Source: Candidatus Nomurabacteria bacterium RIFOXYB1_FULL_39_16 (GTDB taxonomy: Bacteria; Patescibacteriota; Minisyncoccia; Phycocordibacterales; UBA9973). Taken from it: 35,999 nucleotides of DNA. The position numbers and the translations under genes were made by a program. Every line of letters begins with the position of its first letter. Positions within the stretch are counted from its first letter, which is position 1. The notes under the pieces are model-generated. The model searched no databases and was not told where the DNA came from. It saw only the letters and a list, made by a program, of their open reading frames with translations. Positions 27,705 to 29,533 of the stretch are shown piece after piece. Where the stretch lies: positions 44,172 to 80,170 of the forward strand of contig MFWB01000012.1 in the NCBI GenBank assembly GCA_001787205.1, read 5' to 3'.

Positions 27705-27732
27705 TTGTCTTTTTAAAATTATGGGTTATACT
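27705..27732 (+). promoter_or_regulatory. Candidate promoter of the attenuator cassette (TTGTCT-N16-TATACT)
   Basis: -35 27705-27710, -10 27727-27732; GTG of leader ORF begins 7 nt after the -10. Confidence 0.45.
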
Positions 27733-27738
27733 ATTCTC

Positions 27739-27807
27739 GTGAACAAAAATACACAGCAAAGCAAATATATTAAGTTTTTCTTCTTTAGCCACAACTTGGA
27801 AGGCTGA
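27739..27807 (+). CDS. Putative Phe-rich leader peptide (22 aa, (M)NKNTQQSKYIKFFFFSHNLEG)
   Basis: GTG AAC AAA AAT ACA CAG CAA AGC AAA TAT ATT AAG TTT TTC TTC TTT AGC CAC AAC TTG GAA GGC TGA; in-frame upstream ATG at 27721 is an alternative start. Not in ORF track (short). Confidence 0.5.
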   Translation: MNKNTQQSKYIKFFFFSHNLEG

Positions 27808-27880
27808 TATTTGCGCTGTAAAAACTACTAAAAAACTTACAACTCAAATACCAACCTTCCAAGGTTGGTATTTTGTTCTT
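27753..27880 (+). promoter_or_regulatory. Putative transcription attenuator with three mutually exclusive hairpins
   Basis: 1:2 ACAGC(AAA)GCAAATAT 27753-27768 with ATATTTGCGCTGT 27807-27819; 2:3 CTTGGAAGGCTGATATTT 27795-27812 with AAATACCAACCTTCCAAG 27846-27863 (16/18); 3:4 AAATACCAACCTTCCAAGGTTGGTATTT 27846-27873 followed by TGTTCTTT. Confidence 0.6.
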
Positions 27881-27893
27881 TGGAGGAAGAAAA

Positions 27894-28094
27894 ATGGGAA
27901 AGAGGAGAGTTCTCAGCTGTGGTTCTCACAAGAAGGTAAGGCGTCTTGGGCCGAGGAAGAAGTCTACCTTCAAATGTCCTGACTGTGGAATGTCGGTATA
28001 CAGAGACGCAAACTTACTCTCCGAGAAGAAGTGTGCCCCAGCCAAACTTCGTCGTCGGGAGAGGTACTACTTCGGTGAAGCAAGACACCCCTAG
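27894..28094 (+). CDS. Small basic Cys-containing protein of unknown function
   Basis: SD GGAGGA at 27882-27887 with ideal spacing to ATG 27894; MGKRRVLSCGSHKKVRRLGPRKKSTFKCPDCGMSVYRDANLLSEKKCAPAKLRRRERYYFGEARHP. Confidence 0.7.
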   Translation: MGKRRVLSCGSHKKVRRLGPRKKSTFKCPDCGMSVYRDANLLSEKKCAPAKLRRRERYYFGEARHP

Positions 28095-28120: not shown

Positions 28121-28160
28121 TGGCGGCCGTTCCCTTGGATGGGACCGGTCGCCATTTTTT
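28121..28160 (+). terminator. Strong GC-rich terminator downstream of the small gene
   Basis: TGGCGGCCGTTCCC-TTGGAT-GGGACCGGTCGCCA (13/14 paired) then TTTTTT; preceded by hairpin GCTCGG-CGTAT-CCGAGC at 28101-28117. Confidence 0.88.
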
Positions 28161-28171
28161 TATATTTATGC

Positions 28172-28177
28172 TAAAAT
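28172..28177 (+). promoter_or_regulatory. Extended -10 (TGCTAAAAT) 6 nt upstream of aspS
   Basis: TATGCTAAAATatttttATG. Confidence 0.6.
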
Positions 28178-28183
28178 ATTTTT

Positions 28184-29533
28184 ATGAAAAATCGTATTTA
28201 TATTAAAGATTTAAAAGATCACATTGGTAAAGAAGTTGTTGTCGCCGGTTGGGTAGATGTCAGACGCGACCAGGGGAAAATGGCATTTTTTGATATGCGC
28301 GACATGACGGGTAAAGTGCAAGCGGTGGCCTTGCCGAACCACACAGATGTTATAGAAAAATCAAAAGAGGTAAGACTTGAGTGGGTGTTAAAAATTACCG
28401 GATTGGTAAACAAGCGACCGGAAAGAAATATCAAAGCTGGAGTTTTAAACGGAGAAATAGAACTTGAAATTTTAAATATTGAAATACTGAGCGAAGCTCT
28501 TCCGCTTCCCTTTGATATGTCTTTGGACGGATACAACCTTGAGCTGACCACGGAGCTTGATAATAGAGCCATTGTTTTAAGACAACCTAAAGTGCAGGCT
28601 GTATTCAAAGTGCAAGAAACAGTGATTGATTCCTTCCGAGAATTTATGAAAAAGAATATGTTCTTTGAATTTCAGGCACCCGCTATCACTCCGGCCACCG
28701 CGGAAGGCGGAGCAGAAGTTTTCCAAGTGGATTATTTCGGCAAGAAAGCATACCTAACTCAATCACCTCAGCTTTACAAACAAATTGTAATGTCCGCTTT
28801 TGAAAGATGTTTTTCTGTAAACAAAGTTTTCCGTGCCGAACCGTCTTCCACCACGAGACATCTGACGGAAATAGTTTCCCTTGATGCCGAGATGGGATTT
28901 ATTGATTCATGGATGGATGTACGTGATATGGCAGAAGAAACAGTAAGATACATACTCAAACAAGTTGAAGCAAAAAATTCCGAGCACTTGAAAACACTAA
29001 ACGCAACCTTGCCGGTAATGATAGACAAGACGCCGACTTTATCTCTCCGAGAAATTCAACAGAAAATTTTTGAAAAATACGGTCGGGATGTTCGCGGTGA
29101 GAAAGATACAAATCCGGAAGATGAAAGGCAGATTTGTGAGATAATCAAAGAAGAAACAGGTTCCGACTTTGTGTTCGTTTATGGATACCCAACCCGAAAG
29201 AAACCATTTTATATTTATCCAAACCCGGAAGAGCCCGAATACAACGAAGGGATGGATCTTTTGTGTAGGGGGGTTGAATGGCTTTCCGGAGGAAGAAGAA
29301 TTAACGACTACAAACAACTTACAGAACATGTTGAACTTTGGAAAATGGACCCAAGTAAAGTTAAAATGTTTCTTGAGGCGTTTAAATACGGAGTTCCGCC
29401 TGAAGGAGGCTTTGCTTTCGGGGCAGAGCGTATAACTATGCAACTTCTTGGATTAAAAAATATTCGTGAAGCCTCAATGTTCCCGCGCGATATGAACAGA
29501 ATTGATGAAAAATTGAATAGTGACGGATATTAA
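28184..29533 (+). CDS. aspS: Aspartyl-tRNA synthetase, archaeal-type (short, no bacterial GAD insertion)
   Basis: GKEVVVAGWVDVRRDQGKMAFFDMRDMTG...SPQLYKQIVM...VFRAEPSSTTRHLTEIVSLDAEMGF...GGFAFGAERITMQLLGLKNIREASMFPRD; 449 aa. Confidence 0.9.
   Translation: MKNRIYIKDLKDHIGKEVVVAGWVDVRRDQGKMAFFDMRDMTGKVQAVALPNHTDVIEKSKEVRLEWVLKITGLVNKRPERNIKAGVLNGEIELEILNIEILSEALPLPFDMSLDGYNLELTTELDNRAIVLRQPKVQAVFKVQETVIDSFREFMKKNMFFEFQAPAITPATAEGGAEVFQVDYFGKKAYLTQSPQLYKQIVMSAFERCFSVNKVFRAEPSSTTRHLTEIVSLDAEMGFIDSWMDVRDMAEETVRYILKQVEAKNSEHLKTLNATLPVMIDKTPTLSLREIQQKIFEKYGRDVRGEKDTNPEDERQICEIIKEETGSDFVFVYGYPTRKKPFYIYPNPEEPEYNEGMDLLCRGVEWLSGGRRINDYKQLTEHVELWKMDPSKVKMFLEAFKYGVPPEGGFAFGAERITMQLLGLKNIREASMFPRDMNRIDEKLNSDGY

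Follow-up and report, generated by a model that had tools for sequence, protein, structure and literature searches.

A putative phenylalanine-codon transcription attenuator before a small zinc-ribbon-like gene in Candidatus Nomurabacteria, and a Patescibacterial family of leaders with exchangeable control codons

The window, a stretch of 35,999 nucleotides from Candidatus Nomurabacteria bacterium RIFOXYB1_FULL_39_16, a tiny, uncultured bacterium, carries between trpS and a non-discriminating aspS a short region in which all features described here lie on the forward (+) strand. An earlier note had proposed a Phe-type attenuator in front of a small uncharacterised gene, and a base-by-base check found every item on its list in place. 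The leader ORF extends from a GTG at 27739 to a TGA at 27805–27807 (27739–27807), and translation of its 22 codons gives the peptide VNKNTQQSKYIKFFFFSHNLEG, with four consecutive Phe codons (TTT TTC TTC TTT) at 27775–27786. Start, frame and Phe run are conserved among relatives, with TTT and TTC mixed. A sigma-70-like promoter that had been overlooked was located by a consensus scan at 27705–27732 (−35 TTGTCT at 27705–27710, a 16-nt spacer and −10 TATACT at 27727–27732). Its −10 ends exactly 6 nt upstream of the leader GTG, and the same spacing occurs in 51 of 83 family members, a count that is partly circular because the −10 was used in choosing the start, though for copies in the genus the start is set by the model without recourse to the −10. 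The leader transcript therefore probably begins at the start codon, i.e. is leaderless.

The true start of the downstream gene had also been missed: it is the ATG at 27894, behind a Shine-Dalgarno sequence GGAGG at 27882–27886, and the gene (27894–28094) encodes a basic protein of 66 amino acids with a zinc-ribbon-like CxxC..RDAN..C motif. Direct reading of the sequence revealed a probable terminator at 28122–28161 (GGCGGCCG..CGGTCGCC followed by T7), which is absent from a simple terminator scan because it does not fit the stem and loop rules of that scan; it would probably isolate the small gene from aspS. A −10 of aspS itself, TAAAAT at 28172–28177, was found by consensus scan and by reading the sequence. 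Its position exactly 6 nt before the aspS ATG at 28184 (28172–28186) suggests that many mRNAs of this lineage are leaderless.

The RNA of the leader can adopt three alternative pairings. Segment 1 (27753–27768) pairs with 27807–27819 over 13 bp with an AAA bulge, as claimed earlier, the two parts of the helix being 27753–27757 with 27815–27819 and 27761–27768 with 27807–27814. Segment 2 (27795–27821) forms the 5′ arm of an antiterminator, and its 3′ half is the part that also pairs with segment 1; the leader TGA indeed lies within it, and stop offsets were computed family-wide as well. Segment 3 (27837–27863) is the antiterminator 3′ arm, of which 27846–27857 doubles as the 5′ arm of an intrinsic terminator (27846–27880). 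The 2:3 pairing thus exists, yet its extent had been misjudged, since the fold contains 23 pairs between 27795–27821 and 27837–27863 instead of 16 of 18 between 27795–27812 and 27846–27863. The 3:4 terminator consists of a 12-bp stem (27846–27873) with a 4-nt loop, followed by the U-rich tract UUUUGUUCUU that had been reported, and is one of only two detected in a 3-kb scan. Folding of 27730–27895, a check the earlier note had suggested, gave −40.1 kcal/mol over 166 nt (z −4.6), which is better than all of 200 dinucleotide shuffles. Minimum free energy alone prefers 2:3 at this locus, so that the balance between 1:2 and 2:3 without a ribosome depends on co-transcriptional folding.

Only two convincing relatives of the 66-aa protein emerged from a protein search of about 450 genomes of the order, with 48% (locus L004) and 35% (L002) identity. 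At L004 the leader MNKSLQQTTSKFFFFSQETRRPIFAL is followed by the zinc-ribbon gene and then by a single-chain pheS, and at L002 the leader VNKKLQANKIFFFNYFSKTRELIFAL is located after trpS and a TrpR-like gene. Loci retaining the gene without the leader ORF, or without compensatory stem changes, had been named beforehand as evidence against an attenuator; both relatives were found to retain the leader ORF, the Phe run (FFFF in L004, FFF in L002) and compensatory changes in the stems. Residues invariant in the three-member protein group include F26, C28, C31, A39, N40 and C47. Matches of the protein in Pfam and NCBIfam stay below cut-off, it scores under the curated cut-offs of the HVO_2753-like and PRK14890 small zinc fingers (21 bits vs 80 and 18 vs 61), and a search of viral contigs returned no relatives. 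The candidates L003 and L005, protein matches without a leader, were rejected, and no fold is claimed, AlphaFold2 from three sequences having given pLDDT 71 and pTM 0.52, with a best PDB match at E 0.44. This small protein might conceivably bind RNA or the ribosome and be produced in response to Phe shortage.

A covariance model built from these three sequences (window, L004, L002; R1) recovered the element in 35 of 80 congeneric Ca. Nomurabacteria genomes, often in 2–5 copies. Besides the window, 51 strong copies came to light at other loci. With a second model, built from 52 members (R2), members that had not been used for training scored higher (e.g. L038, from 41.9 to 62.2 bits), and the element was placed in at least 36 of 397 genomes of the order, a lower bound with 8 candidates scored per genome. 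Beyond the genus the element is sporadic in order and phylum, the few copies elsewhere in the phylum including an LLLGLLLL leader before leuA. The best R2 match in five non-Patescibacterial genomes was at E 0.137, and the exact 20-nt core pattern occurs, among named genomes, in Ca. Nomurabacteria, in Paceibacterota/Patescibacteria MAGs and in five scattered matches in unrelated taxa, which is about the chance expectation. The sample consists of MAG assemblies, with genes called by eye and with HMMs. Covariance-model matches L099, L100, L145 and L046 were judged false positives, antisense matches arise from the near-palindromic antiterminator, L098 is truncated, and L097 (an MMM copy with a partial match) was excluded from the family statistics.

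Comparison across the family argues for all three helices. In the antiterminator, 89% of cells in the alignment are paired and 15 of 23 pairs have changed on both sides, which none of 500 shuffles reached, whereas slid pairings fall to 40–54% paired; covariation, which the earlier note had wanted to see, is thus present. Since this alignment was fitted to its structure, model-free tests of own against swapped partners were added. For 1:2 the own partner gave −11.6 vs −9.2 kcal/mol over 83 members and −12.0 vs −8.8 over 37 diverse members (with no equally good result in 20000 permutations), for 2:3 −7.6 vs −6.5 and for 3:4 −16.1 vs −9.1 (0 of 5000 permutations each); kinship among sequences can inflate such permutation tests, and the diverse set covers many genera. 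At least four U in the 8 nt after the stem are found in 72 of 86 cases, and the mean folding z is −3.8 over 52 members. The swap tests thus support each alternative helix at the sequence level, and covariation supports the antiterminator in addition. The window element is not a single oddity but one copy in a Patescibacterial family whose members share an RNA framework and carry control codons that can be exchanged. The idea of a single-copy oddity with frame-shifted relatives was ruled out, the same DNA ending naturally in two frames (..LEG* and ..RLIFAL*).

Runs of at least three identical residues in four occur in frame in 54 of 83 leaders, as compared to 26 and 22 in the other frames and 15.3 expected from shuffles; four identical of four occur 14 times in frame, 1 and 0 times in the other frames and 0.5 times in shuffles. 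The family covers at least eight amino-acid types, the runs consisting of F, L, M, I, V, P, C or H or of mixed aromatics, and synonymous change is seen inside them (LLLL leaders TTGTTACTGCTC vs TTGCTCCTACTC). In all 14 cases with a nameable first gene the run is cognate to that gene: VVV with valS (L038), FFFF with pheS (L037), HH in the leader IHH with hisG (L072), IIISGIII with cimA, encoding citramalate synthase (L089), LLLGLLLL with leuA (L144), SPVPP with proB (L074), SPVPP and PFTP with proC (L076, L067), and aromatic runs before DAHP synthase six times (L073, L080, L084, L101, L103, L105, the last with a 61-aa zinc-ribbon-like ORF in between). A simple permutation of our own puts the chance probability of this match below 1e-6. 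The earlier remark that the downstream gene is neither a Phe biosynthesis gene nor pheST is correct for the window and does not extend to the relatives, where the device precedes pheS directly (L037), the zinc-ribbon gene and then pheS (L004), or DAHP synthase.

Two copies with Met runs lie before a gene that is itself followed by homocysteine S-methyltransferase, and Met-run leaders (e.g. MMMAMMM; L045, L077, L090, L091, L092, L097, L104) stand before methyltransferase-like or other unannotated genes. A Phe/Tyr leader before an ilvE-type aminotransferase is a looser match and was kept outside the 14. With respect to the second gene, non-cognate arrangements occur as well, namely CC leaders before a short ORF and proS, and an FFFF leader before a 103-aa ORF and alaS, and in several copies (e.g. 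L019, L026) the run is weak or made up of mixed hydrophobic residues. Leaders rich in Trp, His, Phe, Tyr and Met (HFFW, WHYYMH, WHFTFY, FYFWY; L037:114-254, L070, L075, L079) precede one conserved family of proteins of 370–420 aa with the motif TSHaGN..YKL..s.lGlPd..WDvTc, which is without a Pfam match and probably has an aromatic amino-acid function. The single-chain (mitochondrial-type) PheS with an FDX-ACB domain (L004:1846-2988, L037:1658-2854) is the only PheRS in the f46-lineage genomes G355 and G334, as the only pheT-like sequence there is the C-terminal domain of that enzyme; the window's genus has a separate pheT.

Within the genus there are two main genomic spots, one before aspS with 18 copies, nearly all with Phe runs, and one before gyrB with 10 copies, mostly of Leu, Ile, Val and Cys types. 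The small ORFs between the attenuator and the next gene vary by genome (24–127 aa), several are basic or contain CxxC, and as a rule a terminator-like hairpin comes after them. A small, fast-evolving protein is the product of the putatively controlled gene in the window, as it is at many congeneric copies. A second small-protein family, with the motif LTVPPr.T.LPCG..R..gWvHh..C, lies behind leaders before aspS (L011, L020, L022, L024, L025). The window's genome has a second attenuator copy (G000 C8:104331-104476; L047, L053, L138) with the leader VNNSQTNKPNFFIIKLLSKLEG, upstream of gyrB and directly downstream of pheT, a position also found in G030. Tandem copies about 500–2000 bp apart, often with unlike runs (e.g. 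Ile/Val and Phe in L052), occur at L052, L060, L063 and L066, as if units duplicate and then change codons.

The locus is best read as a ribosome-mediated transcription attenuator that would sense charged tRNA-Phe, to which we assign a probability of roughly 0.88. Transcription would begin at or beside the leader GTG, with a ribosome trailing RNA polymerase. If Phe-tRNA is scarce, the ribosome would stall on the four Phe codons and cover segment 1, which would allow the 2:3 antiterminator to pair and the small gene to be transcribed, so that the output on Phe shortage would be the basic 66-aa zinc-ribbon-like protein. If Phe-tRNA is plentiful, the ribosome would reach the stop codon in segment 2, 3:4 would form, and transcription would end at about 27875–27880. 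Without translation, 1:2 would form and 3:4 would again terminate. The features by which this mechanism class is recognised are present, i.e. a control-codon ORF between segments 1 and 2, mutually exclusive 1:2, 2:3 and 3:4 pairings with compensatory change, a 3:4 terminator ahead of the gene and a leader stop in segment 2. Cognate codons accompany every relative with a nameable first gene (14/14), and the window's 66-aa gene is not a recognised Phe gene. Ribosome-mediated attenuation thus appears well supported comparatively.

It is unlikely, though worth considering, that the product of the attenuator is instead the terminated leader RNA, acting in trans as a small RNA, or the leader peptide, and that the downstream small ORF is incidental. 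Alphaproteobacteria are known to have trans-acting RNAs that derive from attenuators, the core GGCTGATATTTGCGCTGTAA..TTACAAC is conserved at the nucleotide level beyond what pairing needs, and the small downstream ORFs turn over quickly. Beyond the genus, however, the elements directly precede cognate biosynthesis or aminoacyl-tRNA synthetase genes, and the small ORF in the window is preceded by a good ribosome-binding site, is followed by a terminator and has homologues in two further genomes that also stand behind this leader. The position of 18 congeneric copies, nearly all with Phe runs, upstream of aspS could mean that aspS is the attenuated target; this is quite improbable, because its own −10 indicates otherwise, the strong hairpin with T7 intervenes, the spacing between attenuator and aspS varies from about 185 to 1180 nt, and other copies precede gyrB or unrelated genes.

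Stalling might also be caused by a signal other than Phe-tRNA, such as a drug or nascent-chain arrest at the common ..RLIFAL end: the same TAA ends 37 of 83 leaders, most of them reading ..RLIFAL, which is reminiscent of arrest peptides. A TGA in a different frame ends another 15 copies, mostly as ..LEG, LEV or LED, however, so that nucleotides and not the peptide are conserved at the leader end, and the run changes along with the controlled gene; we regard this explanation as very improbable. That a U-rich ORF came to lie beside an ordinary terminator by chance can be dismissed, even though Phe codons arise easily in U-rich sequence and the genome is AT-rich, because the 51 further copies, the antiterminator covariation, the swap tests, the in-frame run enrichment and the cognate gene matches all contradict it.

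The proposed tRNA-Phe-sensing attenuator resembles the pheL (pheA) and pheM (pheST) leaders of enterobacteria (Rfam RF01859, Phe_leader) in its Phe-run leader ORF, the stop in segment 2, the 1:2/2:3/3:4 arrangement and the intrinsic terminator, but differs from them in its target, a small zinc-ribbon-like gene, in its probable leaderless start and in a framework that serves many amino acids across the family. Its score places it outside RF01859 (24.3 bits, E 0.069, vs a gathering score of 55). The classical trp, his, leu, ilv and thr attenuators of Proteobacteria and the trp, leuS and ilvB attenuators of Actinobacteria follow the same logic, with a run that matches the gene, as in HH-hisG and LLLGLLLL-leuA here. 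In published attenuators, sequence is conserved among leaders of a single type of operon (PMC1262725), whereas in the present family one conserved core is common to leaders for different amino acids. In this it is like the T-box leaders (RF00230), which also place one RNA framework with an exchangeable specificity codon before many amino-acid genes; the present family lacks the T-box sequence, and its specificity would be read by a ribosome on the leader ORF.

In the open-access literature searched, no report was found that links leader-peptide attenuation with CPR or Patescibacteria, and the combination of Parcubacteria and leader peptide retrieved only unrelated papers. The pheL/pheM logic is known; new features are the lineage, the use of one framework in which the codons can be exchanged, and the small genes that it carries as cargo. 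If the proposal is correct, the least-known large bacterial branch, with tiny genomes and few biosynthesis pathways, would still sense single amino acids via translation-coupled attenuation. More tentatively, one conserved framework may have been copied around Patescibacteria genomes and re-specified by swaps of a few codons, as a general amino-acid sensor and leader-peptide counterpart of the T-box, whose targets in Ca. Nomurabacteria would mainly be small proteins, basic or zinc-ribbon-like, that are induced by starvation and quickly replaced, rather than biosynthesis genes. The codon runs would also hint directly at the function of unknown genes, such as the aromatic-run gene family and the small proteins, and the exchangeable-codon framework lends itself to easy tests, in vitro or in a laboratory host.

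For T-boxes proper (RF00230; specifier stem and antiterminator GGUGGUACC..), the window gave no Rfam match. A T-box-like leader precedes ileS elsewhere in the window's genome (G000 C11:39544-39675, L154) and in G122 C1 (L153), with 64–75 bits, under the Rfam gathering score of 93. Sub-threshold T-box matches are present in 39 of 118 genomes of the order, from which it follows that the Rfam cut-off probably misses CPR T-boxes. An absence of T-boxes as the reason for having attenuators was ruled out by these sub-threshold but convincing matches, including the one before ileS: T-boxes and attenuators coexist in the window's genome.
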